Assembly (NCBI RefSeq): GCF_041053055.1
Contig: NZ_CP163443.1
Coordinates: forward strand, 1,116,001 to 1,180,000
Direction: 5' to 3'
From: Streptomyces sp. R41
GTDB taxonomy: Bacteria; Actinomycetota; Actinomycetes; Streptomycetales; Streptomycetaceae
DNA length: 64,000 bases
The notes beneath the pieces are model-generated. The model saw only the letters and a list, made by a program, of their open reading frames with translations, made no database searches and was not told the origin of the DNA. A program made the position numbers and the translations under genes. Positions 24,566 to 62,295 of this stretch are shown one piece after another (positions within the stretch are counted from its first letter, which is position 1; each line of letters begins with the position of its first letter).

Positions 24566-25438
24566 TCAGGCCGCGAGTGCGGTCTCGTACTCGGCGGGAC
24601 TGCGGTAGCCGAGGCTGCTGTGCAGCCGGTGCAAGTTGTACCAGCCCTCGATGAAGTCGAAGATCGCGGTGCGGGCTGCGGCCCGACTGCGCCAGGAGCT
24701 CGTGTCGAGCAACTCCCGTTTGATGGTGGCGAAGAACGACTCGGCTAGCGCGTTGTCCCAGCACTGCCCGGTGCGCCCGACGGAAAGCCGAACGCCCAAC
24801 TCCCTTGCCAGGGCGGCGAATTGCTGACTGGTGTACTGACAGCCGCGATCCGAGTGAAAGATCACCGGCCGGGCGGGACGACGCAGGCGACAGGCGGACC
24901 TGAGAGCGTCCGCGACCAGTTCGGTCCGCAGGTGGTCGGCGGTGGACCAGCCGACCACGCGGCGGGAGGCGATGTCGATGACGGTGGCCAGATAGAGCCA
25001 GCCCTCGTCGGTGGCAACGTAGGTGATGTCACCGCACCAGCGGGTGTCGAGGCCGTCCTGGGCGGGAGCGAAGTCGCGAACGACGAGGTCGGGCCGAGCG
25101 GCGGCCCGCGGGTCGGGGATCGTCGTCAGCTGCCGCCGCCTGCGGTGCCGGCCCTGCAGTCCGGCGCTGCGCATCAGTCTGGCGATGCGGCGGCGGCCGC
25201 AGCCCTCGCCCTGCCGCTGCAGGACGGCGTGGATGCGCGGGGCTCCGTAGGTTCCGCGGGAGGTCTCATGGACTTCGGTGATCTTCTCGGTCAGCTCGGC
25301 ATCGCGGACCGCCTGCGAACCGGGCCTGCCACTGCGACGGGCATAGAAGGCGGCTCGGGAGACCTTAAGCAGTTCACACGCGCGCTTGACGTTGTGACCG
25401 TCTCGCTTCTCCGCCTCGATGAACGGATGCACCGTCAC
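24566..25438 (-). CDS. IS3 transposase OrfB (DDE integrase)
   Basis: 290 residues. An N-terminal HTH_21-like region (YGAPRIHAVLQRQGEGCGRR) precedes an rve integrase core with the DDE residues in WCGDITYVATDEGWLYLATV, FHSDRGCQYTS and DNALAESFFATIKRE. It ends in the family motif YNLHRLHSSLGYRSPAEYE. The GTG start overlaps the orfA stop by 4 bases, allowing coupling or a frameshifted OrfAB fusion. Confidence 0.93.
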   Translation of the reverse strand: MTVHPFIEAEKRDGHNVKRACELLKVSRAAFYARRSGRPGSQAVRDAELTEKITEVHETSRGTYGAPRIHAVLQRQGEGCGRRRIARLMRSAGLQGRHRRRRQLTTIPDPRAAARPDLVVRDFAPAQDGLDTRWCGDITYVATDEGWLYLATVIDIASRRVVGWSTADHLRTELVADALRSACRLRRPARPVIFHSDRGCQYTSQQFAALARELGVRLSVGRTGQCWDNALAESFFATIKRELLDTSSWRSRAAARTAIFDFIEGWYNLHRLHSSLGYRSPAEYETALAA

Positions 25439-25752
25439 CGGGTCTCCTTCGCGAAGAAAGCCGTGGCCCGCTTGAGGACCTCCACGTCCTCCCGCAACCT
25501 GCGGTTCTCCCGCCGCAACGCGGCCAGCTCCTCGCGCTCGCTGCTGGTCAGCCCGTCACGCTCGCCCGCGTCGACCTCGGCCTGGCTGACCCACAGCCGC
25601 ACCGCCGTCTCCGTCAGATCGAAGTCCTTGGCGACCTGACCAACCGAACGGTCACCGCGCCGGCACAGCTCGACGATCTCGGCCTTGAACTCCGGCGTGA
25701 ACGAACGGCGAGGCCGAGGCTTCTTCTTCCCCATGCTCTCCATGATGGACAT
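25435..25752 (-). CDS. IS3 transposase OrfA
   Basis: 105 residues. A helix-turn-helix (RRSFTPEFKAEIVELCRRGD, then VGQVAKDFDLTETAVRLWV) binds the element ends, and a leucine-zipper-like coil follows (EREELAALRRENRRLREDVE). An upstream ATG pair allows two starts; the longer is given. Confidence 0.93.
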   Translation of the reverse strand: MSIMESMGKKKPRPRRSFTPEFKAEIVELCRRGDRSVGQVAKDFDLTETAVRLWVSQAEVDAGERDGLTSSEREELAALRRENRRLREDVEVLKRATAFFAKETR

Positions 25753-33085: not shown

Positions 33086-33403
33086 ATGTCCATCATGGAG
33101 AGCATGGGGAAGAAGAAGCCTCGGCCTCGCCGTTCGTTCACGCCGGAGTTCAAGGCCGAGATCGTCGAGCTGTGCCGGCGCGGTGACCGTTCGGTTGGTC
33201 AGGTCGCCAAGGACTTCGATCTGACGGAGACGGCGGTGCGGCTGTGGGTCAGCCAGGCCGAGGTCGACGCGGGCGAGCGTGACGGGCTGACCAGCAGCGA
33301 GCGCGAGGAGCTGGCCGCGTTGCGGCGGGAGAACCGCAGGTTGCGGGAGGACGTGGAGGTCCTCAAGCGGGCCACGGCTTTCTTCGCGAAGGAGACCCGG
33401 TGA
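33086..33403 (+). CDS. IS3 transposase OrfA, copy 2
   Basis: 105 residues, identical in sequence to the product at 25435-25752: helix-turn-helix plus coil. It begins 54 bases inside the left end of copy 2. Confidence 0.93.
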   Translation: MSIMESMGKKKPRPRRSFTPEFKAEIVELCRRGDRSVGQVAKDFDLTETAVRLWVSQAEVDAGERDGLTSSEREELAALRRENRRLREDVEVLKRATAFFAKETR

Positions 33404-34272
33404 CGGTGCATCCGTTCATCGAGGCGGAGAAGCGAGACGGTCACAACGTCAAGCGCGCGTGTGAACTGCTTAAGGTCTCCCGAGCCGCCTTCTATGCCCG
33501 TCGCAGTGGCAGGCCCGGTTCGCAGGCGGTCCGCGATGCCGAGCTGACCGAGAAGATCACCGAAGTCCATGAGACCTCCCGCGGAACCTACGGAGCCCCG
33601 CGCATCCACGCCGTCCTGCAGCGGCAGGGCGAGGGCTGCGGCCGCCGCCGCATCGCCAGACTGATGCGCAGCGCCGGACTGCAGGGCCGGCACCGCAGGC
33701 GGCGGCAGCTGACGACGATCCCCGACCCGCGGGCCGCCGCTCGGCCCGACCTCGTCGTTCGCGACTTCGCTCCCGCCCAGGACGGCCTCGACACCCGCTG
33801 GTGCGGTGACATCACCTACGTTGCCACCGACGAGGGCTGGCTCTATCTGGCCACCGTCATCGACATCGCCTCCCGCCGCGTGGTCGGCTGGTCCACCGCC
33901 GACCACCTGCGGACCGAACTGGTCGCGGACGCTCTCAGGTCCGCCTGTCGCCTGCGTCGTCCCGCCCGGCCGGTGATCTTTCACTCGGATCGCGGCTGTC
34001 AGTACACCAGTCAGCAATTCGCCGCCCTGGCAAGGGAGTTGGGCGTTCGGCTTTCCGTCGGGCGCACCGGGCAGTGCTGGGACAACGCGCTAGCCGAGTC
34101 GTTCTTCGCCACCATCAAACGGGAGTTGCTCGACACGAGCTCCTGGCGCAGTCGGGCCGCAGCCCGCACCGCGATCTTCGACTTCATCGAGGGCTGGTAC
34201 AACTTGCACCGGCTGCACAGCAGCCTCGGCTACCGCAGTCCCGCCGAGTACGAGACCGCACTCGCGGCCTGA
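33400..34272 (+). CDS. IS3 transposase OrfB, copy 2
   Basis: 290 residues, identical to the product at 24566-25438, with an intact DDE triad. The GTG start overlaps the orfA stop by 4 bases. Identity of both copies implies recent transposition or gene conversion. Confidence 0.93.
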   Translation: MTVHPFIEAEKRDGHNVKRACELLKVSRAAFYARRSGRPGSQAVRDAELTEKITEVHETSRGTYGAPRIHAVLQRQGEGCGRRRIARLMRSAGLQGRHRRRRQLTTIPDPRAAARPDLVVRDFAPAQDGLDTRWCGDITYVATDEGWLYLATVIDIASRRVVGWSTADHLRTELVADALRSACRLRRPARPVIFHSDRGCQYTSQQFAALARELGVRLSVGRTGQCWDNALAESFFATIKRELLDTSSWRSRAAARTAIFDFIEGWYNLHRLHSSLGYRSPAEYETALAA

Positions 34273-52327: not shown

Positions 52328-53707
52328 TCAGGCGGGCGCCGGGGATCGCCTTCTGCCCGGAGCCAGGGGGCCCAGTGCGAGCCGTGTGACGCGCGACCAG
52401 TCGGCCGCGGGTCGGCTCGGCGGTGCTCCCGGGCGGTCGCGCGGCACGCGGACCCGCAGTGCCCCGGGGGCGATCCGGCACACCACAGGTGCCGGCAGCA
52501 TCACGTGTTCCCCGTCTATGCCGGCCGGGACGGTGTCCGTGTCCGCTTCGACGACCACCTCGTGAGCGGTGAGCCGCAGGAGGCCCGCGGAACGGGCGCC
52601 GCGCACCATCCGCGCCGCCTGCGCGGCGTTCTCGACCCGCACGCACAGCACGCCGAGCAGTCCGGAGTCCAACCGCTCCCTACGCCCGGGGTGGGTCGAG
52701 TCGACGGCGCGCAGATAGGGATTGTTGCTGACGAGCAGCGCCTGCAGCCCGTCGGCGCGCGTCGCGTCGGCCCGCATCCGCAGCCTGGGCGCGTCGGGGC
52801 CGGTGAGAAGTCCCGGCAGCGCCTGCAGGGTCGTATGCACTTTCGCGTCGCGGTAGGCGGGGTCGCCGACAACAGCCGCGTAGGTTCCGAAGGAGGCGTT
52901 GTTGACGAACACCCGGTCGGCGGCGAACCCGAGGTCGACGCGGAGTTCGATGCCGTCGGCAAGGGCGTCCAGACCCGTCGTCGGATCGTCGCGGTCGAGG
53001 CCGAGGTCGAGGGCGAAGTGGTTGCGGGTGCCGGCGGGAATCACCAGGAAGGGCAGGTCGTGCCGCGCCGCCACCTCGGCCACCAGGGCCTGGGTACCGT
53101 CTCCGCCCGCCACCGCCAGCAGATCGGCTCCCTCGGCCACGGCCTGCCGGGCGAGTTCGGTCACGTCCTGCCCTTCGGTACCGAGCAGAACGACACGGGC
53201 GCCCGCCGCCCGCGCCTTGTCGACCAGGTGGAAACGTCCCACCTTGCCGCCGCCGGAGCGCGGATTCATCAGGATCCAGGGATGGTGGGGTGCCTCGGCG
53301 GGCTCACGCTCGTGTGCCGAAGGGATGTGTCCCGGCGCCACGGCGAACCGCGCCGCCGCCATGGCCAGCACCCACAGGGCCAGGGAGAAGAGGGCCGGCC
53401 CGAGCATGCCGTAGGCGGCGTACAGCGCCAGGACCGTGACCGGTGCGGTCAGGGACAGGACCACTCCCGCCACCCGCACCACACCGGTGTGGGCCAGAGT
53501 CCACCACACCCCGACGGCGGCGAGGGCCAGTCCGGCGATGCCGACCAGCGCCCAGAGCACGCTCCGCAGACCGGCTGCGACGAGCGCCACCAGCACGCTG
53601 GTCAGCAGGGCGAGCAGTGCCAGCCGCGCCCACCCGGGGCGGCCCTCACCGCCGCCTGCCGCGGGGTGGCCTGCTGGCCCGCTCGCCTCCGTGCGGTGTC
53701 GTCCCAC
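52328..53707 (-). CDS. Diacylglycerol-kinase-type lipid kinase with membrane helices
   Basis: 459 residues. Four membrane helices in the first 125 residues (ARLALLALLTSVLVALVAAG, LVGIAGLALAAVGVWWTLAH and two more) precede a DAGK catalytic domain: WILMNPRSGGGKVGRF, LAVAGGDGTQALVAEVAARH, FLVIPAGTRNHFALDLGLDR. GGDGT is the nucleotide-binding signature. It probably phosphorylates a membrane lipid. GTG start with GGGAGGG. It is the last gene of the run 54689 to 52328 with short gaps, so likely one operon with the two small membrane proteins. Confidence 0.88.
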   Translation of the reverse strand: MGRHRTEASGPAGHPAAGGGEGRPGWARLALLALLTSVLVALVAAGLRSVLWALVGIAGLALAAVGVWWTLAHTGVVRVAGVVLSLTAPVTVLALYAAYGMLGPALFSLALWVLAMAAARFAVAPGHIPSAHEREPAEAPHHPWILMNPRSGGGKVGRFHLVDKARAAGARVVLLGTEGQDVTELARQAVAEGADLLAVAGGDGTQALVAEVAARHDLPFLVIPAGTRNHFALDLGLDRDDPTTGLDALADGIELRVDLGFAADRVFVNNASFGTYAAVVGDPAYRDAKVHTTLQALPGLLTGPDAPRLRMRADATRADGLQALLVSNNPYLRAVDSTHPGRRERLDSGLLGVLCVRVENAAQAARMVRGARSAGLLRLTAHEVVVEADTDTVPAGIDGEHVMLPAPVVCRIAPGALRVRVPRDRPGAPPSRPAADWSRVTRLALGPLAPGRRRSPAPA

Positions 53708-53753: not shown

Positions 53754-54188
53754 TCACGGCGAGCGCGGGAACGGGCCGGAGGACCCTTCCTCCCGGGCCA
53801 CGCACAGGGCCCAGATGACGAACCCGGAGAAAGCGATCATCACGATCGACCAGACCGGGGAGTACGGCAGGGAGAGGAAGTTGGCGATGATGATGAATCC
53901 GGCGATGACCACCCCGGCCACGCGCGCCCACATCGCCGTCTGGAAGAGTCCGAGACTGACGATCACGGCGACGGCGCCCAGAACAAGGTGGACCCAGCCC
54001 CAGCCGGTGAGGTCGAACGCGAAGACGTAGTTGCGTGTCGTGACGAAGACGTCGTCCTGAGCGATCGCCATGATGCCTCTGAGGAGGTCGAGTACGCCTG
54101 CGATCATGAGCATGACGGCTGCGAATGCTGTCAGACCTTCGGCCCAGTGTCGCTTGGCCGGGTGTGCGTGCGTGGTGTGAGTCGTCAT
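53754..54188 (-). CDS. DUF7144-like four-helix membrane protein
   Basis: 144 residues with four membrane helices: GLTAFAAVMLMIAGVLDLLR, WVHLVLGAVAVIVSLGLFQT, VAGVVIAGFIIIANFLSLPY and WSIVMIAFSGFVIWALCVAR. This pattern is common in Streptomyces and resembles the DUF7144 family. A His-rich cytosolic start (MTTHTTHAHPAKRH) is notable. It lies between the SHOCT and lipid-kinase genes in the same direction. Confidence 0.78.
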   Translation of the reverse strand: MTTHTTHAHPAKRHWAEGLTAFAAVMLMIAGVLDLLRGIMAIAQDDVFVTTRNYVFAFDLTGWGWVHLVLGAVAVIVSLGLFQTAMWARVAGVVIAGFIIIANFLSLPYSPVWSIVMIAFSGFVIWALCVAREEGSSGPFPRSP

Positions 54189-54221: not shown

Positions 54222-54689
54222 TCAGCCACTGGAGCTGGAGGAGCCGGCGCCCGAGCGTTGCGACGGGCCGGAGCCGCTCAGGACCAGTTCCTTCGCCCTG
54301 CGGAACTCCTCGTCCGTGATGTCGCCGCGGGCGCGGATTTCGGACAGCTTGGCGAGTTCGTCGGCGCTACTGCGGCCCTCGCCGCCCTTTGCGGTCTCCC
54401 GGACGTAGCTTTCGAAGGCCGCCTGCTGCTCCCGCGCCTGCGCCACCTCCCGCTGGCCCATGTTCTTGCCACGGGCGATCACGTAGACCAGGACGCCCAG
54501 GAAGGGCACGACGATGACGAACAGCAGCCAGCCGGCCTTGGCCCAACCGCTCAGCTTGTCGTCCCGGAAGATGTCGACGATGACCCGGAAGAGCAGGATG
54601 AACCACATGATCCACAGGAAGAACCACAGCATGGACCAGAAGACGCTCAGCAGCGGATAGTCGTACGCGAGGTACATCTGCGCGCTCAT
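54222..54689 (-). CDS. PLD nuclease-N-like membrane protein with SHOCT domain
   Basis: 155 residues from the ATG at 54689 (GGAGGAGAG upstream). Two membrane helices (VFWSMLWFFLWIMWFILLFR and AKAGWLLFVIVVPFLGVLVY) are followed by a coiled coil (MGQREVAQAREQQAAFESYV) and a C-terminal SHOCT motif (ELAKLSEIRARGDITDEEFR). The tail is poly-Ser/Gly. SHOCT is thought to be an oligomerisation module. First gene of the presumed operon running to 52328. A copy of the inverted motif lies 80 bases upstream. Confidence 0.85.
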   Translation of the reverse strand: MSAQMYLAYDYPLLSVFWSMLWFFLWIMWFILLFRVIVDIFRDDKLSGWAKAGWLLFVIVVPFLGVLVYVIARGKNMGQREVAQAREQQAAFESYVRETAKGGEGRSSADELAKLSEIRARGDITDEEFRRAKELVLSGSGPSQRSGAGSSSSSG

Positions 54690-54768
54690 GTCTCTCCTCC
54701 GTCCCGGGCCTCGGCCCGGCAGCCGTTCTGTGCCGTCTTCAGCGTGCCCACGGCACGGACCGGGCGGC

Positions 54769-54787
54769 CTCACCCGAGACGGGTGAG
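54769..54787. promoter_or_regulatory. Inverted motif CTCACCC-N5-GGGTGAG (site 1)
   Basis: Perfect: TCACCC, GAGAC, GGGTGA, extended by C/G on both sides. 80 bases upstream of the SHOCT gene start. It shares form and spacing with sites at 55651, 56767 and 59079. Confidence 0.7.
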
Positions 54788-54889
54788 CGGGTTTCCCGAC
54801 CATGGCTCACGGCTGGTGCTCGTCCTGGCCCTGACCGTGTCGGCCGTCGTCGCCGTCACAGATCCCACGCCGACATCGAGCGGAGCGCC

Positions 54890-55549
54890 TCAGGCCGTCT
54901 CGCCGCTTCCGTGCGGCCCCGCGACGCCGGACCTGCGGAGTGCGGCGCGCCATGCGAACGCGACCGCCACCTCGACCAGGCCGAGCAGGACGAGCCACAG
55001 ACCGAGCAGCCGGGTCAGCGCCCGGGCCGACTCGGTGGGCAGGGCCAGTACCACGATCCCCGCGAGGACGGCGATCACCGCGGCACCGATGACGAAGCCG
55101 CGGTGGGGCAGGTCCTTGGCAGCGATGGCTCCGTAGAGGGTGAGGATGCCGGACACCAGCCAGACGATCCCGACGATCAGCGAGAGCGCGGCGATGGTCT
55201 GCAACGGGTTCCGCAGACACAGCACCCCGGCCAGGACGAACAGCACCGCGAGGAGCAGCCCGGGCAGCCGTTCGCCGAGCTCGTCCCGGCCGAAGGCCGC
55301 GACGAACCGGAACGCCCCCATCACGAGCAGGTACAGGCCGATGAGGACCGCGAGGACGTGCAGGGTCTCGTCCGGCCAGACCAGTACCAGGATGCCCGGC
55401 ACGAGCGTGGCGACCGCCGAACCCAGGATCCACGTCCACGAGCGCCCGAGTTCCGCCAGCACGTCCGCGGGGTCGCCGGCCGGCTCGGCCGCCCCGTCGG
55501 GCATGTGTTCCGGTCCGGTACGCGGTTCCGGACCACGCGACACGGTCAT
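54890..55549 (-). CDS. HdeD-like (DUF308) membrane protein
   Basis: 219 residues with six helices in three pairs: TWILGSAVATLVPGILVLVW, LAVLIGLYLLVMGAFRFVAA, LLLAVLFVLAGVLCLRNPLQ, ALSLIVGIVWLVSGILTLYG, FVIGAAVIAVLAGIVVLALP and GLWLVLLGLVEVAVAFAWRA. HdeD proteins are linked to acid and general stress. GGAGGAG lies 2-8 bases before the ATG. Site 2 of the shared motif lies 102 bases upstream, between this gene and the divergent potassium channel. Confidence 0.85.
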   Translation of the reverse strand: MTVSRGPEPRTGPEHMPDGAAEPAGDPADVLAELGRSWTWILGSAVATLVPGILVLVWPDETLHVLAVLIGLYLLVMGAFRFVAAFGRDELGERLPGLLLAVLFVLAGVLCLRNPLQTIAALSLIVGIVWLVSGILTLYGAIAAKDLPHRGFVIGAAVIAVLAGIVVLALPTESARALTRLLGLWLVLLGLVEVAVAFAWRAALRRSGVAGPHGSGETA

Positions 55550-55650
55550 GGCTCCTCCTCGCGCGATCGAGCGGATCGCTCCCGGACCGCCGACGGGGCG
55601 GTGTGTGGGGATCTCACCGGGCCAGCGTCCCGCCCGTCGCCGGTCACCGG

Positions 55651-55670
55651 GTCACCCCAGGCGGGTGATC
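55651..55670. promoter_or_regulatory. Inverted motif TCACCC-N5-GGGTGA (site 2)
   Basis: TCACCC, CAGGC, GGGTGA, perfect. It lies between divergent genes: 80 bases before the potassium-channel start and 102 before the HdeD-like start. Confidence 0.7.
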
Positions 55671-55749
55671 CGTGCGCACAGCCGGGGCGATGAGGTGGGT
55701 GCCGAAAGAGATGCGACGGCGTACGGCGGTAGGGACGAAGAGACACGAT

Positions 55750-56337
55750 ATGAACGATCCAGTGGCTCCCCGGACGGGGCCCGCCCGGTTCGGGCGGGCG
55801 ACGAATCGCCGACGACCCGGCCCGGGACTCCGGGCGAGGGCCGTGCCCGTCGCGCGAGCCGTGTTCGTCACGGCGGCCCTCGTCACCGCGTACTACCTGC
55901 TGCCCTTGGACGGAGGCAGCACGGGTGCCACTGCGGCCCTGTTCGCGTTCGGTCTGCTGGGGGTCGTCGTGGTCTTCTCCTGGGAGGTACGGGCCATCGC
56001 GCGCTCGCCCCATCCCCGTCTGAAGGCCGTCGAGGCCCTGAGCGCCACGCTGGCGTTGTATCTGGTGCTCTTCGCGAGCGCCTACTACCTGCTGGAGCAT
56101 TCCGCCCCGGGCTCCTTCAGCGAACCGCTGACCAGGACGGACGCCCTGTACTTCACGCTGACCACGTTCACCACCGTCGGGTTCGGCGACATCACCGCCC
56201 TTTCCCAGACGGGGCGGGTGGTGACGATGCTTCAGATGACCGGCGGACTGCTGCTCGTGGGCGTCGCCGCACGGGTGCTCGCAGGTGCGATCCGGGCGGG
56301 GCTGCGCCGCCAGGGCCGTGATTCTCCGCCGGAGTAA
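55750..56337 (+). CDS. Two-TM potassium channel
   Basis: 195 residues from the ATG at 55750. Four hydrophobic segments: VPVARAVFVTAALVTAYYLL, ALFAFGLLGVVVVFSWEVRA, LSATLALYLVLFASAYYLLE and the inner helix MTGGLLLVGVAARVLAGAIR. Between the last two lies the selectivity filter TLTTFTTVGFGD, a standard TVGFG potassium filter. No RCK domain. The Arg-rich N-terminus is cytosolic. Preceded by site 2 of the shared motif. Confidence 0.88.
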   Translation: MNDPVAPRTGPARFGRATNRRRPGPGLRARAVPVARAVFVTAALVTAYYLLPLDGGSTGATAALFAFGLLGVVVVFSWEVRAIARSPHPRLKAVEALSATLALYLVLFASAYYLLEHSAPGSFSEPLTRTDALYFTLTTFTTVGFGDITALSQTGRVVTMLQMTGGLLLVGVAARVLAGAIRAGLRRQGRDSPPE

Positions 56338-56481
56338 AGGATCGTCGGTACGGGACGGCGGTCCAGGAGGTTTCCACGGCCACACCGGACACCTGCGGGA
56401 CTTCGAGGCGTTGGGCGCCGCCACCCGCTCCGGCAGGATCCACGCCGAGAACCCCCGAGGGCCCCCGCACGGACGGACGCG

Positions 56482-56685
56482 TCACTCCGACTCCGGCAGC
56501 TGGCGCATCTCGAGGACCCGTAGACCCAGCGACTGACAGCGGGCCAGCAGCCCGTACAGATGCGCCTCGTCGACGACGGAACCGAACAGGATGGTCTGTC
56601 CGGACATCACCACGTGGTCCAGCTCCGGGAAGGCACTGGTCAGCGTCTCCGACATGTGTCCTTCGACGCGGATCTCGTAGCGCAT
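56482..56685 (-). CDS. Small ACT-like protein
   Basis: 67 residues from the ATG at 56685 (GGGGGAG 8 bases upstream). The sequence MRYEIRVEGHMSETLTSAFP, then VMSGQTILFGSVVDEAHLYG and LLARCQSLGLRVLEMRQL, has a beta-alpha-beta-beta-alpha-beta pattern like a single ACT-type fold. Similar short proteins are frequent in Streptomyces; the function is unknown. Site 3 of the shared motif lies about 82 bases upstream, in the gap to the 56814 gene. Confidence 0.75.
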   Translation of the reverse strand: MRYEIRVEGHMSETLTSAFPELDHVVMSGQTILFGSVVDEAHLYGLLARCQSLGLRVLEMRQLPESE

Positions 56686-56766
56686 GAGCTGCTCTCCCCC
56701 GGGTGTCCTGGGACCGGCGGGCTGCACCCCTTCCCTGCGATCCTCCGCCGCGGCACACCGCCCGGC

Positions 56767-56785
56767 CTCACCCCGTAGAGGTGAT
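56767..56785. promoter_or_regulatory. Inverted motif, site 3 (one mismatch)
   Basis: TCACCC, CGTAG, AGGTGA: same spacing, one change in the right arm. 82 bases upstream of the small ACT-like gene. Confidence 0.55.
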
Positions 56786-56813
56786 ACATCGCCCGGCACG
56801 CGCTCCACCTGCG

Positions 56814-57332
56814 TCAATGCTTCAGGAAGAGCTTGAACGAGATGATCAGCAGACCGAGCAGCAAATTCACCGAGGCGGCGACGGCCACCAGGCGCCACGA
56901 GGCACCGGCCCGCCGTGCCGCGGCCGCCGACCAGCCCACCTGGCCTGCCACGGCAACCGTGAGCGCCAGCCAGAGAGCGCCCGGTACGTCGAGACCCAGG
57001 AGAGGGCTGACGGCCACGGCCACGGCCGGCGGGATGGCGGCGTTGACGATCGGCCACTCGTCGCGGCACACATGCAGCACGGTCCGGCGATCGAGGTTCT
57101 GCGCCGCCAGGCGCGCCCCGAACAGCTGGGCGTGCACATGGGCGATCCAGAACACCACGCCGGTGAGCAACAGCAGCAGCACCAGCTCCAGGCGCGGGAA
57201 GGCACCCAGCGTGCCGGCGCCGACGACCACCGAGGCGGCGAGCATGGATCCGTAGACGCCACCGGTGTAGTCGGCATGGGTCCGCCGCTCGCCCGTGCGC
57301 GCTCGGGCCGGGACGTGCTCGGTCTCGGACAT
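56814..57332 (-). CDS. Membrane protein, unknown
   Basis: 172 residues from the ATG at 57332 (GGGAGG upstream), 17 bases after the exporter gene, so co-transcribed. Four or five membrane helices, for example SMLAASVVVGAGTLGAFPRL, LVLLLLLTGVVFWIAHVHAQ and VAVAASVNLLLGLLIISFKL. A His-containing cytosolic loop lies between helices 2 and 3. Family not recognised; it may be an accessory to the exporter. Confidence 0.72.
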   Translation of the reverse strand: MSETEHVPARARTGERRTHADYTGGVYGSMLAASVVVGAGTLGAFPRLELVLLLLLTGVVFWIAHVHAQLFGARLAAQNLDRRTVLHVCRDEWPIVNAAIPPAVAVAVSPLLGLDVPGALWLALTVAVAGQVGWSAAAARRAGASWRLVAVAASVNLLLGLLIISFKLFLKH

Positions 57333-57349
57333 CGCGGCCTCCCTCGAAG

Positions 57350-58969
57350 TCAGCGGCGCGAGCCGATCGCGTCGGCCGACGCGCCGGGTTGCTTGGGACC
57401 GCTGGCACGGGTCGGCAGATGCGGCGTGACCAGGAAGCCGGCCAGCGTGATTCCCCCGGTGGCGAGGATTGCCGCCTTCAGGCCGTCGAGCTGCGCCGAC
57501 GCGTACGAGTCTGTAAGGGCGTCGGCCTCGGACGGCGGCAGCCCGGCTTGTTCGGCCGCCGAGCGCACCTGCTCGGTCGGCACGAAGGTGATCCCGGCTT
57601 CGAGGGCGACACCGGTCTGCTGGCGGGTTTCCTCCGACAGCCTCGGGTGGTCCTCCACCTGCGTGGTGAAGGCGTGGGCCAGGGCGCCGATGAGTATCGA
57701 TCCGATGAGCGCGGTGCCCAGCGCGGAGCCCAGGTTCTGGGCGGTGAACTGCAGCCCGCCGACCTCGCTGCGTTCCTCCTCGCCCACGCTGGACTGCACG
57801 ACGTTGCCCAGCTGCGAGGCGAGCAGGCCCATGCCCACACCGAGCAGGGCCATGGCTCCGGCGAACTGCGCGTCGTCGATGACCGGGTCGATGGTGGCCA
57901 GCAGCCACACGATGGCGGCGGCCAGCGTCGCCAGCGCCAGTCGGACCACCCGGCGCGGTCCGGCCACCCGCCCCAGCCGGGCGGCGATCATGGAGGCCGC
58001 GAGCATGGTGACGGACACCGGGAGCAGCCGCAGCCCCGTCTGGAAGGCGTCGAAACCCTGAACCACCTGCAAGTACAGCGGGATGGTGAAGAACAGTCCC
58101 AGCAGGATGAGGTTCTGGCTCAGCAGTGACATCAGGCCGGATCGCAGCGCCGGCTTGTGCAGCAGGGGCAGATGCACCAGGGGCTCGGCACCGCGGGCCT
58201 CCCGCCGCCGCTCCCAGTGCACGAAGAGGGCCAGCACGGCCACCCCGGCGCCGACGACGAACAGCGTCGGCGCGAAGCCCAGGACGGTGAAGGGCGGGTT
58301 GCGGGGCTGCACCCATCCCCAGGAGCTGCTCTGCAGCACGCCGAGCACGCCCAGGGCCAGCCCGGCCGCCGATAGCGCGGCGCCGACTCCGTCCAGCCGG
58401 GGGCGCGGACCGGTCCGGGGGGATTCCGTGATCACCCGGTGGAAGCACAGCACGGCGATGACGACCACGACCTCACCGGCGAACACCAGCCGCCAGGTGA
58501 GGTACGTCGTCACCCAGCCGCCCAGCAGCGGGCCGACCGCGATTCCGGCCCCGGCGAGTCCGCCGATGACGCCGTAGGCGACGGCCCGGTCCGGTCCGCG
58601 GTAGGACTCGGCCACGAGGGCCGCCATGGCCGGCAGCACCATCGCGGCACCGAGTCCTTCGATGACCGACCAGCCCAGCGTGAGGACCCACAGGGTGGGA
58701 GCCGCGGCGGTCAGGGCCGACCCGGTGCCGTAGACGACGAGGCCGAGGAGAAAGAGACGACGTCGTCCGAAGATGTCTCCGAACCTGCCACCGATGATCA
58801 TGAACGCCGCCATGACCAGCGCGTACAGCGTGATGACGGCCTGGATGGCGGTGACCTCGGTGTCGAAGTCCTCGACCAGTTGGCTGATGGACACGTTCAT
58901 GACGGATGTGTCGAGGACCATCAGGAACTGGGCGGTGCCCAGCACGATAAGCGCCCGCCAGTGCGTCAC
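57350..58969 (-). CDS. DHA2-type drug:proton exporter, 14 helices
   Basis: 539 residues from the GTG at 58969 (GAGG 8 bases upstream); a GTG 9 bases earlier is an alternative. It belongs to the QacA/EmrB group: helix 1 LIVLGTAQFLMVLDTSVMNV carries the acidic D1 motif, and loop 2-3 has GGRFGDIFGRRRLFL (motif A). The antiporter motif C region is GVIGGLAGAGIAVGPLLGGW. Proton-driven export of hydrophobic compounds is likely. Site 4 of the shared motif lies 110 bases upstream. Confidence 0.9.
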   Translation of the reverse strand: MTHWRALIVLGTAQFLMVLDTSVMNVSISQLVEDFDTEVTAIQAVITLYALVMAAFMIIGGRFGDIFGRRRLFLLGLVVYGTGSALTAAAPTLWVLTLGWSVIEGLGAAMVLPAMAALVAESYRGPDRAVAYGVIGGLAGAGIAVGPLLGGWVTTYLTWRLVFAGEVVVVIAVLCFHRVITESPRTGPRPRLDGVGAALSAAGLALGVLGVLQSSSWGWVQPRNPPFTVLGFAPTLFVVGAGVAVLALFVHWERRREARGAEPLVHLPLLHKPALRSGLMSLLSQNLILLGLFFTIPLYLQVVQGFDAFQTGLRLLPVSVTMLAASMIAARLGRVAGPRRVVRLALATLAAAIVWLLATIDPVIDDAQFAGAMALLGVGMGLLASQLGNVVQSSVGEEERSEVGGLQFTAQNLGSALGTALIGSILIGALAHAFTTQVEDHPRLSEETRQQTGVALEAGITFVPTEQVRSAAEQAGLPPSEADALTDSYASAQLDGLKAAILATGGITLAGFLVTPHLPTRASGPKQPGASADAIGSRR

Positions 58970-59078
58970 GGTGTCCACCTCGCCGAGTCGGCCCGGGACG
59001 CCGGCGGAGTCGGCCGGGCAGCGACGGGCACCTGCCCTGCCGCCACCCCCATCGCATCCGAAGTACTCACCCGGCGCC

Positions 59079-59097
59079 TCACCCACCACGGGCGAGC
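59079..59097. promoter_or_regulatory. Inverted motif, site 4 (one mismatch)
   Basis: TCACCC, ACCAC, GGGCGA with matching C/G flanks. 102-110 bases upstream of the exporter start, between it and the LuxR gene end. Confidence 0.5.
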
Positions 59098-59163: not shown

Positions 59164-61866
59164 TCACGATCGCGGTGACAGCAGCCGCAGCTCGCGCGCG
59201 CGCCGCACCGCGTCGTGGCGCCGGTTCACCGCCAGCTTTCGGTACACGCTCTTGAGGTGCGTCTTGACCGTGTTCACCGACACATACAGATCGGCGGCGA
59301 TCTCTTCCGTCGACATCATCTGAGCCAGTCGCTCCAGCACATCGCGCTCGCGTCCGCTCAGCTCCTCCACGACGGGCGCCGGTGGCTGGTCGCCGGGCCG
59401 AGGCAGCCCACCGTGTGACGGCGTTCCCGGTGTGAGCCAGCCCGCGGCCAGCTCTCGCAGGGGCACCATGCCCAGCAGAGGCCGGATCCACGGTCCGGCT
59501 TCGAGGAAGGGGCGCCGCAGCCGCTCGCGCCGTGCCTCATGGAGAGCCTGGGCGACGAGCCTGCGCGAGGTGGCGGAGTCCCCCGCCCCGTCCGCGGCCT
59601 GCGCCCTCACCAGCGAGGCCCGGACGGTCACCGCGGGGCCGGTGCGGCCCTCGGGACGCACTCTGTCGAGCAGGTCGATCGCCTCGACGGGCCTGCCCGC
59701 GGCGAGCTGGGCCCGTGCTGCCCCCACGACACACGCCGGCTGGTCGTCGGGCACCGCCTGCAGCAGCTCCGCTGCCGTCTCCGGCCGGCCTTCGGCCAGG
59801 TGCGCGGCGGCGGCCACCAGCGCCGTTTGCCCCTCCGCCCAGGGGGAGACCACGTCGGCGGCGACGGCCGGTTCCGCCGCTTCTAGCGCGGCGTGCGTGT
59901 CGCCGCGGGCCAAAAGCAGACGCGCGGTGGCGATGGCCCGCCCCGCTTCCATCACGGGGTCCCGCATCGCGCGGTGCGAGTCGGCCGCCGTGTCGAGGAG
60001 GGCCTGGGCCTGCCCCAGTTCGTTGCGGTCGACGGCCACGGCGGCCAGGACCAGCAGCTCGATGCCGGAGCCGGACGTCTGAGGCAGGCCGAACCGCTCC
60101 GTCTCCGTCATCGCCGCCAGGGCCTTGCGCTCCGCCCTGCCGAGCCAGCCGTTCAAGTAGTCGATCAGGGCCAGGTGGCCCAGGGACTCCTCGCGCGGGA
60201 GCGCCGTCGACGCTCCCTTGGAGCAGCTGGCCGCTGTGGTCAGGGCGGTACGTGCGTCCTCGAATCGCCCGGCCCACAGCCGCGTCGAGCCAAGGTGGGT
60301 CAGCAGGAGGGCGCTGAGTTCGGGATGCTCGTCCAGCAGGTGGGTGGGCAGCTCCTCCTGGAGTCTCTCGGCCGCCTCCGCGGCGATCTCCGCTCTTGCG
60401 GGCGAACCGGTCAGCCGGGCCGCCAGGGCTTCCAGCAGGGCACAGCTGAGGCGGGCCGCCGCCAGGCCGGACGAGTCGGCCCCCGCCGACGTCTGCTCCT
60501 CGGCCAGGCTCTGCTCGGCGTGCCGCAGGTGGCCCAGGCCGCGGTCGAGGTCGCCTCGGGACAGCTCACGGGCCGCGCGGACGAGGTCCGTGGCGGTGCT
60601 CGTGGCCTCGGGCCCCATCCGTGAGAACAGACCCGCCAGGTCGTCGCAGCGCAGGCCGGTGAAGAGCTGACCGATGGCGAGGTCGTCCACGAGGGCACCG
60701 GCGGTGAACTCCCAGTCGCCGGCGGCCGCACCGTGCCCCAGCGTCTCCGCGAGGGATCCGGAGCGCCGCAGCCATGCCGCGGCCCGCCGGTGGAGTTCGG
60801 GCTCAAGGCCGGGAGAGCGCACCTGCAGATGGGCATGGAGGATCTCCCCGAACAGCGGGTGGAGGCGGTACCAGGCGTGCCCGAGGTGCTCGACGAACGC
60901 GTTCTCGCGGTGCAACCCGGCCAGGATGGCCCCGGCGTCGGTCCGCTCCGTCAGCGCGTTCGCCAGCTCTGGACAGAAACGCTCGAGAACGCTGACCCGC
61001 AGCAGCAGATCCTGCGTCTCGGGGGTCTGCCGCTTGAGGACCTCCGCCAGCAGGAAGTCGGCGACCGTGGTGCGGTCGGCCTCGAACTCCTTCAGATACG
61101 TCTCCGGGTCCGGCATCTCCTGTGCTGCCAGGGCGCACAGCCGTAGTCCGGCGGCCCATCCCCGGGTGCGCTCCACGAGCGCGCCCGCGGCGTGCACCGG
61201 AAGGCACAGCCCGTGCAACTCCAGCAGCGCGGCCGCTTCCTCGGGGGTGAAGGCCAGCTCCGCGTTCCTGATCTCCGTCATGTCGCCCGCCGCCCGGTAA
61301 CGGTGCAGCGGCAGCAGCGGTTCCGTGCGGGTGACGAGGATCAGGCGCATGCCCCGTCCCGCGTGGTGCAGGACGAACTCCAGCTGCTCCGCGATCTCCT
61401 GGTCGGTCACCCGGTCGTATTCGTCGAGCACCACGATCAGGGGCCGGTCCCGAGCGCTCAGATCGGCGGCGAGCCGTGCCAGCAGCGTGTGGTCCACGCG
61501 GCTCGCGTCCGCGGGGAAGCCGACCTCGGCGGGCAGCGGCACACCGGAGGCGCGCAGAGCCTGGAGCAGATACGCCCAGAACATTCCGCACCCCTGCTCC
61601 GAGGCCTCGGTGGTGAGCCAGGCGACGGGCCGGTCCCGCCCCGCGGCCCAGTCGGCGACCAGCAGGGTCTTGCCCGCACCCGCGGCTCCGTTGACCATGG
61701 TCAACGGGGTCAGCAGAGCCTGGTCGAGGTGCTTGACCAACCGCTCCCGCCGCAGGAACGTCACGGGGCGCTTCGGCACGGCGAACCGCGTGCGCAGAAA
61801 CGGGTCTCCCTGGGGATCAGCACTCGGCGTGGTCGATTCCGGACCGTTGTCCTGGAGCCCAGTCAT
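59164..61866 (-). CDS. MalT-like LuxR-family transcriptional activator (STAND ATPase)
   Basis: 900 residues. The N-terminus has the DT-arm and P-loop (GAAGAGKTLLVADWAAG, residues about 40-55), then Walker B (PLIVVLDEYDRVTDQEIAEQ). The centre is a long helical repeat region (about 400-780) of TPR-like sensor type. The C-terminal 60 residues are a LuxR helix-turn-helix (LSGRERDVLERLAQMMSTEE, IAADLYVSVNTVKTHLKSVY). Such STAND proteins switch on by ligand and ATP binding. It sits head to head with the PP2C-type gene and beside the stress operons, so it is a candidate regulator of the shared motif sites. Confidence 0.9.
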   Translation of the reverse strand: MTGLQDNGPESTTPSADPQGDPFLRTRFAVPKRPVTFLRRERLVKHLDQALLTPLTMVNGAAGAGKTLLVADWAAGRDRPVAWLTTEASEQGCGMFWAYLLQALRASGVPLPAEVGFPADASRVDHTLLARLAADLSARDRPLIVVLDEYDRVTDQEIAEQLEFVLHHAGRGMRLILVTRTEPLLPLHRYRAAGDMTEIRNAELAFTPEEAAALLELHGLCLPVHAAGALVERTRGWAAGLRLCALAAQEMPDPETYLKEFEADRTTVADFLLAEVLKRQTPETQDLLLRVSVLERFCPELANALTERTDAGAILAGLHRENAFVEHLGHAWYRLHPLFGEILHAHLQVRSPGLEPELHRRAAAWLRRSGSLAETLGHGAAAGDWEFTAGALVDDLAIGQLFTGLRCDDLAGLFSRMGPEATSTATDLVRAARELSRGDLDRGLGHLRHAEQSLAEEQTSAGADSSGLAAARLSCALLEALAARLTGSPARAEIAAEAAERLQEELPTHLLDEHPELSALLLTHLGSTRLWAGRFEDARTALTTAASCSKGASTALPREESLGHLALIDYLNGWLGRAERKALAAMTETERFGLPQTSGSGIELLVLAAVAVDRNELGQAQALLDTAADSHRAMRDPVMEAGRAIATARLLLARGDTHAALEAAEPAVAADVVSPWAEGQTALVAAAAHLAEGRPETAAELLQAVPDDQPACVVGAARAQLAAGRPVEAIDLLDRVRPEGRTGPAVTVRASLVRAQAADGAGDSATSRRLVAQALHEARRERLRRPFLEAGPWIRPLLGMVPLRELAAGWLTPGTPSHGGLPRPGDQPPAPVVEELSGRERDVLERLAQMMSTEEIAADLYVSVNTVKTHLKSVYRKLAVNRRHDAVRRARELRLLSPRS

Positions 61867-62295
61867 GGCGCTCACCACCACTGTTCGTCAGGTCATGGGC
61901 AGCGCTCCTGCACTCAGCATCCCAGTGTTCCTTCGTGTACGCGCGCCACAGAGGCCCCAGTGGCCCCGCCCCAAGGGCGCCACGGCGGCCGCCGGACAGC
62001 TCACGTGGGTCTGCGGGACAGCGTCGCATGATCGGTGCTCCCTTCCGGCCGGAGCGTCCCGGGCACACGCGCGTCCCGGGCGCCGTATCGCGCCCCGCGT
62101 CTGCCACCCTCTTCGCGCCGGACCGCGCCGGGCCTCCCCGCCACGGGTGAGTTCCGGGCGCGCGGCGCCGGGAAACGGGTCCCGCACCCTCGCCATTCCT
62201 GCCCCGGCGCTCTGCGGGTGCGATCGCGCCGACCGCGCAGCACGCTGGAAGCACGCCCGGATACGGGGCAGTGGTGCGCAGGACGGAGCTCGGAG
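61867..62295. other. Divergent promoter region LuxR/PP2C
   Basis: About 430 bases. A half-conserved motif copy lies at 62134-62151 (CTCCCC, GCCAC, GGGTGA). No gene. Confidence 0.45.

Follow-up and report, generated by a model that had tools for sequence, protein, structure and literature searches.

A repeated palindrome beside a MalT-like regulator

Which protein, if any, reads the inverted repeat that recurs ahead of a cluster of genes for little-known membrane and other proteins in Streptomyces sp. R41? The window, that is, the whole stretch of 64,000 nucleotides analysed here, corresponds to bases 1116001-1180000 of a one-contig 10.46 Mb genome. It contains four copies of the palindrome TCACCC-N5-GGGTGA and, next to them, a gene for a MalT-like LuxR-type regulator of the LAL family. 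We read the four palindromes as predicted sites of the LAL encoded at 59164-61866, which would govern the cluster as a class II activator, and put the probability of this reading at about 0.82. An earlier note on the same DNA had suggested a single regulon with a dimeric regulator, possibly this LuxR protein, a suggestion that the conservation of the sites and their co-occurrence with the LAL support at the level of sequence.

A pattern scan of the window returned what the earlier note had reported, namely two perfect and two one-mismatch copies with a gap of 5 ahead of stress genes (Table 1); its position 59079 stands, while the other three were each one base low, the correct starts being 54770, 55652 and 56768. 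The distances to the start codon, 80 nt for the SHOCT gene, 102 for HdeD, 82 for p67, 88 for the MFS gene and 81 for the K channel, agree with the 80-110 bases given previously. When up to 2 mismatches are allowed, the window holds an unremarkable 7 copies versus 4.8 expected by shuffling. Genome-wide, a limit of one mismatch yields 26 matches, versus 9 for a reversed-pattern control, and 4 of the 26 fall inside the 4.3 kb of the cluster. If matches were spread at the density of the remaining 22, at least 4 would fall within 4.3 kb with a Poisson probability of 2.8e-10. The third and only other perfect copy in the genome sits within a reading frame, the product of which we take to resemble a CDP-alcohol phosphotransferase.

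The genome-wide scan that the earlier note had called for gave the same picture with a sequence-only profile (R1) built from 73 site sequences: the four window sites ranked first (E values of 1.4e-8, 7.5e-6, 1.3e-5 and 2.3e-4). The training set had included three of them but not the p67 site (rank 2, E 7.5e-6). Since the next match reached an E value of only 0.03, the regulon in R41 looks confined to the LAL cluster. Other genomes contain up to 10 R1 matches at E<=0.01.

Conservation of the sites across relatives

A search of 150 genomes of the genus for HdeD orthologues gave matches at E<=1e-20 in 80, and 41 of these (R41 included) were at least 58% identical. Three sets of loci were examined: about 20 kb around the 40 other HdeD genes (less where a contig ended sooner) plus 35 kb from R41 itself, 766,618 bases in all (set 1); 28 loci centred on the LAL gene (set 2); and 80 named loci, 79 from Streptomyces and one from Kitasatospora aureofaciens (set 3). 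The sets overlap partly and are not independent (for example, L052 and L186, or L061 and L222, in our numbering of loci, come from the same genomes). A gap of 5 dominated each of them. Set 1 held 50 perfect and 54 one-mismatch copies, any other gap from 0 to 15 giving at most 1 and 8; set 2 held 32 and 38, with at most 1 and 8 at other gaps; and set 3 held 121 and 111, with at most 4 and 22 at the other gaps from 0 to 11.

Allowing up to one mismatch and a distance of up to 220 nt from the gene, and listing sets 1, 2 and 3 in order, we found a site ahead of the SHOCT orthologues in 25/26, 17/20 and 64/65 cases, of p67 in 27/29, 17/21 and 66/71, and of the K channel in 5/5, 5/5 and 15/15. The corresponding fractions were 15/18, 1/2 and 26/32 for the MFS gene, 7/10, 4/8 and 13/32 for DUF2252, and 2/5, 1/1 and 5/8 for glycosyl hydrolase 15 (GH15); HdeD (23/40 and 37/43) and PP2C (2/4 and 4/7) offered none to test in set 2. 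Sites were found at 2/27, 8/19 and 3/57 DUF7144 genes, at 1/23, 0/5 and 5/45 DUF172 genes, which are usually without a site of their own, and at 2/23, 0/23 and 0/77 LAL genes. None lay within that distance of the genes for DAGK (0/3 and 0/9, none to test in set 2) or for the class II amidotransferase (0/9, 0/5 and 0/22). The conservation that the earlier note had proposed to check is thus borne out, the sites being strongly kept upstream of the same genes in the named relatives.

The typical distance from site to gene across species is 80 nt, and 102 nt for HdeD. DUF7144 usually follows SHOCT without a site, and where it stands alone a perfect site lies about 80 nt ahead of it (L066, L069, L129-L132, L135 and L138). 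HdeD likewise lacks its own site where it follows closely behind p67 in seven loci (L055, L057, L059, L060, L065, L067 and L073). Even the imperfect sites have recurrent sub-types, usually TCACCT-N5-GGGTGA for p67, and TCGCCC- or TCCCCC-N5-GGGTGA for the MFS gene.

In three loci (L046 17765, L052 18731 and L133 7454), a site precedes a gene of the glycosyl hydrolase 15 or trehalase-like kind, often with PP2C on the opposite side, which hints at a sugar-related signal. Separately, genes for a LuxR-type regulator, an MFS protein, a p67-sized protein, DUF308 and SHOCT, accompanied by four sites that fall into the sub-types above, form a cluster (L329, NZ_CP109126.1 17932-36456) on a 391-kb linear S. 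anulatus plasmid typed as mobilizable. With a gene for a MobF relaxase a few kb away, the LAL regulon is probably able to move as a unit.

Promoter anatomy

We aligned 148 sites ahead of five gene families on the palindrome, all of them chosen to have no more than one mismatch. The sites keep their orientation relative to the gene, and a T occurs 28 or 29 bases past the palindrome end in 146 of the 148. In 145 this T lies within A-N3-T (130 sites) or T-N3-AT (15 sites), and it is invariant in the 73-sequence alignment. If this T is taken to close a -10 hexamer, the palindrome would end at about -35 and be centred near -43. Activators bound near -43 are referred to as class II, and the predicted position of the palindrome is that of such an activator. 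The promoter-proximal arm is nearly invariant, with 4 changes versus 70 in the distal arm, an asymmetry that selection for at most one mismatch alone does not explain.

The LAL regulator and its co-occurrence with the sites

The LAL protein combines an N-terminal ATP-binding domain (Pfam AAA_22 above the cut-off, AAA_16 just below it) with a MalT-type TPR region (PF17874) and a C-terminal LuxR helix-turn-helix domain (HTH; PF00196), both above their cut-offs. The glycines, lysine and threonine of its P-loop are invariant in our alignment of LAL sequences (A2), and its profile matches MalT chain 8bob_C with an E value of 2.4e-59.

Homologues at E<=1e-150 were found in 54 of the 150 genomes, and their distribution follows that of the sites. 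All HdeD loci with a site (30/30) come from LAL-positive genomes, versus 1/10 of those without (G039, where the LAL is unlinked; Fisher p 3.7e-8); counting a split LAL in G053 raises the latter to two of 10. At E<=1e-4, R1 matched in 50/54 LAL-positive and 6/96 LAL-negative genomes (p 4e-28), and five of these six hold a diverged, split or broken LAL. In five genomes (G122, G047, G058, G080 and G085), identity to the LAL is no more than 36-40% over the best-matching stretch, yet the HTH is nearly unchanged, and the 1.5-kb flanks of all five include a site with no more than one mismatch; sites also persist beside LALs of 41-55% identity. In one locus (L317, G056:C1:3595851-3597682), a LAL gene seemingly broken into three pieces lies beside a remaining perfect site, with relatives of DUF2252 and SHOCT nearby. 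Among the gene families that a rough gene caller placed in at least 8 of 81 LAL loci, a LacI type (8/81 loci) was the sole one besides the LAL recognised as DNA-binding; one family from 15 loci matched no Pfam model.

The association extends beyond the genus. In a phylum sample of 296 genomes, we scanned 24 LAL loci from outside the genus, taken from among the matches listed. Among these, L262 has a mixed site, L263 one perfect TCATCC-N5-GGATGA, L266 two perfect TCACCC-N5-GGGTGA and L284 two one-mismatch copies, and no site was found in the other 20 of the 24. The wider L263 locus (L318) contains two perfect TCATCC sites together with DUF7144- and MFS-like genes, and a p67 relative lies downstream of the two sites of L266 (L319). 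The region of the recognition helix reads NTVRTHVRS in the LAL of L263 and L318, versus NTVKTHLKS in most LALs of the TCACCC type, a lead to the residues that may read the changed base.

Several observations weigh against assigning the sites to the LAL. The species are related, so species counts are not independent, and R1 was trained on loci of LAL-positive genomes, so its 50/54 is partly true by construction. One genome (G138) has sites where the LAL search found none, and two (G136 and G039) have LAL relatives where R1 gave no strong match. Within the locus stretch, 10/80 named LAL loci lack a perfect site and 5/80 lack any with at most one mismatch, some site-less loci lying at contig ends or having the cluster elsewhere. 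HdeD keeps its own site right behind p67 in L051, L066 and L069. Finally, as the promoter of the LAL gene itself carries no conserved site (0/77 in the named loci), no feedback loop supports the link.

Alternative explanations

The earlier note had also named a NarL-type response regulator as a candidate. Its concrete form would be BldM, a NarL-type orphan response regulator of Streptomyces development, which would bind the sites and place the cluster in its own regulon. What commends BldM is its footprinted 16-bp homodimer site, TCACcC-gnnc-GgGTGA in the part of the report available, which has the same half-sites and a spacer of 4 rather than 5 (PMC4125116); the motif has also been seen in S. 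griseus (PMC8914203), and the weak copy ahead of the PP2C gene (62134-62150) also fits a spacer of 4 if 2 mismatches are allowed. The spacing counts against BldM: the three locus sets contain no perfect and only 1, 2 and 7 one-mismatch copies with a gap of 4, against 50, 32 and 121 perfect copies with a gap of 5. The R41 genome does hold 73 gap-4 matches with at most one mismatch (control 12), none of them within the window, where the 6 gap-4 matches with 2 mismatches equal the chance expectation; in the positive control of this gap-4 scan, which failed, 0/7 chaplin loci matched with at most one mismatch. Moreover, BldM is regarded as general across the genus Streptomyces, whereas the sites track the LAL. 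We consider control by BldM unlikely.

Much the same low probability applies to some other, unlinked regulator that is co-inherited with the LAL and binds the sites itself. Co-occurrence is not binding, and in G129, G141, G124 and G100 the LAL is encoded at another place in the genome, so linkage is not obligatory. These four genomes nevertheless still have the LAL, and LAL relatives from other families, one of them from another class, have the same or a one-base-variant site nearby. A MalT-like regulator with sites of the same geometry also has a precedent in the accessible part of a study on Actinoplanes (PMC7567727). More improbable still, to the point that we give it hardly any weight, is that the palindrome acts as an RNA hairpin in the 5' leader and not as a protein site on DNA. 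Six-bp inverted repeats with a 5-base loop ahead of start codons do have the form of one. The 148 aligned sites show no compensatory double change, which counts against a hairpin; one-sided changes number 74, of which 53 retain a G-T pair and 21 disrupt pairing. The conserved -10-like element downstream of the repeat would, in addition, put the repeat outside the transcript.

Members of the cluster

The features of the cluster are collected in Table 1. The DAGK gene recurs in 19/81 LAL loci. The structure model of p67 is confident (mean predicted local distance difference test score, pLDDT, 91.6), with the order strand-helix-strand-strand-helix-strand. The label 'ACT-like' given to it previously is compatible with this model, but the folds that it matches belong to the common ferredoxin-like type.

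The weaker copy that the earlier note had placed before the PP2C gene is present, perhaps decayed, and does not make PP2C a firm member. Its three mismatches are all in the distal arm, leaving an intact GGGTGA arm facing PP2C. It scores 7.1 bits, versus about 14.5-25 for the collected sites, and 0.8% of 330-bp pieces drawn at random from the window score at least 7.1 bits. The -10-like T was not found at its usual distance past this copy in the window. In the closest relative (L176), which has flanks similar to the window stretch, a one-mismatch site precedes PP2C, and in 4 of 9 distinct PP2C-bearing relatives a site faces PP2C and is shared with a divergent GH15 gene. The copy may thus be a decaying or auxiliary site, and we keep PP2C off the firm member list.

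Elsewhere in the window, two apparently identical two-frame gene pairs, presumably transposase-like, lie some 7 kb from each other and point in opposite directions (24566-25752, minus strand, and 33086-34272, plus strand).

Table 1 Features of the cluster and of its flank, in window coordinates
Feature	Position	Strand	Basis
Diacylglycerol-kinase-like protein (DAGK), downstream of DUF7144	52328..53707	-	Pfam PF00781; operon membership putative
DUF7144 membrane protein, second after SHOCT	53754..54188	-	Pfam PF23636
SHOCT/PLDc_N membrane protein	54222..54689	-	Pfam PF09851, PF13396
Putative -10-like hexamer CACGCT (SHOCT)	54741..54746	-	A-N3-T at conserved distance; predicted from sequence
Palindromic site TCACCCGTCTCGGGTGA (gene orientation) of the SHOCT-DUF7144 operon	54770..54786	-	Perfect match
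HdeD family membrane protein (DUF308)	54890..55549	-	Pfam PF03729
Putative -10-like hexamer GACGCT (HdeD)	55624..55629	-	Predicted
Palindromic site shared by HdeD (-) and K channel (+)	55652..55668	.	Perfect match
Potassium-channel-like protein, two transmembrane segments	55750..56337	+	Pfam PF07885; divergent from HdeD
p67, 67-aa protein, predicted ferredoxin-like (RAM/ACT-like) fold	56482..56685	-	Structure model; no Pfam family
Putative -10-like hexamer GAGGAT (p67)	56740..56745	-	Predicted
p67 site, sub-type TCACCT-N5-GGGTGA (gene orientation)	56768..56784	-	One mismatch
172-aa protein (DUF172), after MFS	56814..57332	-	No Pfam family
MFS exporter	57350..58990	-	Pfam PF07690
Putative -10-like hexamer TGCGAT (MFS)	59051..59056	-	Predicted
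MFS site, sub-type TCGCCC-N5-GGGTGA (gene orientation)	59079..59095	-	One mismatch
LAL, 900-aa MalT-like regulator, proposed activator	59164..61866	-	Pfam PF00196, PF17874; match to MalT chain 8bob_C; co-occurrence with sites
Weak, possibly decayed copy CTCCCCGCCACGGGTGA ahead of PP2C gene	62134..62150	+	3 mismatches

A model for the LAL regulon

We propose that the LAL is a MalT-like one-component, ATP-dependent activator that would bind a ligand and ATP, whereupon two LuxR-type DNA-binding domains would occupy TCACCC-N5-GGGTGA. With the GGGTGA arm ending at about -35, the LAL would sit over a poor -35 region, beside RNA polymerase (class II activation), and would switch on together SHOCT-DUF7144(-DAGK), HdeD, the K channel, p67 and the MFS unit. 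In this model, direct binding by the LAL, activation rather than repression, the positions of the start sites and control by a ligand are all predictions from sequence comparison.

The LAL family has been described as poorly studied (PMC3282765), and our literature searches found no LAL regulon of this kind described for Streptomyces. Streptomyces carry many LALs, few of which have a known site. One LAL clade now has a predicted site, promoter geometry and target list, the findings span dozens of Streptomyces, and the function is directly testable. If the model is true, the little-known SHOCT, DUF7144, DUF308, DUF2252 and p67 proteins gain a common control.

Comparison with known systems

The closest parallel is the 'maltose-regulated large genomic region' of Actinoplanes sp. 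SE50/110. According to the accessible portion of that study, the MalT-like activator ACSP50_3915 controls this region of 51 genes, most of which lost or gained expression upon its deletion or overexpression, and the site TCATCC-5 nt-GGATGA occurs at 17 promoters with its 3' end 34.4 +/- 1.0 nt upstream of the start site (PMC7567727). As described there, both systems set a MalT-like LuxR regulator amid poorly known, partly membrane-protein genes, with inverted hexamers separated by 5 nt at promoters in its own neighbourhood; both neighbourhoods include a class II glutamine amidotransferase gene; and both systems are kept among relatives (PMC7567727). The Actinoplanes palindrome overlaps the -35 region (PMC7567727), and the position of the -10-like T predicts the same geometry for R41. 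They differ by one base per arm (TCACCC/GGGTGA versus TCATCC/GGATGA), in the number of sites (four in R41, 17 promoters in the 51 genes) and in the maltose response, which that report documents for Actinoplanes only (PMC7567727). The 80 named loci contain no perfect TCATCC-N5-GGATGA, which occurs instead close to the L318 LAL, from another family. By architecture and site geometry, the R41 system looks like a Streptomyces counterpart of the Actinoplanes regulon with a changed box.

Escherichia coli MalT, as quoted in the same report, resembles the LAL in protein architecture and in the position near -35 that is predicted for the R41 sites, and the promoter-proximal half-site GGGTGAGG shares TGAGG with the MalT box GGGGA(T/G)GAGG; the MalT boxes are described as repeats of one hexamer where R41 has a palindrome, and the targets are unrelated (PMC7567727).

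Two Streptomyces systems invite comparison as well. BldM has a HTH of the LuxR/NarL type, and OsdR/DevR one of the LuxR type. The OsdR/DevR dormancy regulon shares with ours a palindromic site and stress-related genes in Streptomyces, but its site as given in the part of the source available, AGGGCCGATCGGCCCT, differs in sequence from the four R41 sites (PMC5069765). The BldM homodimer site TCACcCgnncGgGTGA, again a Streptomyces palindrome, has the same half-sites and differs in its spacer of 4 instead of 5, BldM being, in the available text, a response regulator with developmental targets (PMC4125116). It is conceivable, although we would not yet favour it, that in Streptomyces BldM and the LAL, regulators of different families, read the same half-site TCACCC/GGGTGA and are separated by a spacing of 4 versus 5, that LAL relatives elsewhere in actinobacteria read the one-base variant TCATCC/GGATGA, and that the LAL regulon travels as a unit, also on a mobilizable plasmid. 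If BldM acts through the gap-4 matches, one base pair of spacing separates both systems, and half-sites identical to those of BldM would make this cluster a clean system for studying how spacing alone separates regulons.

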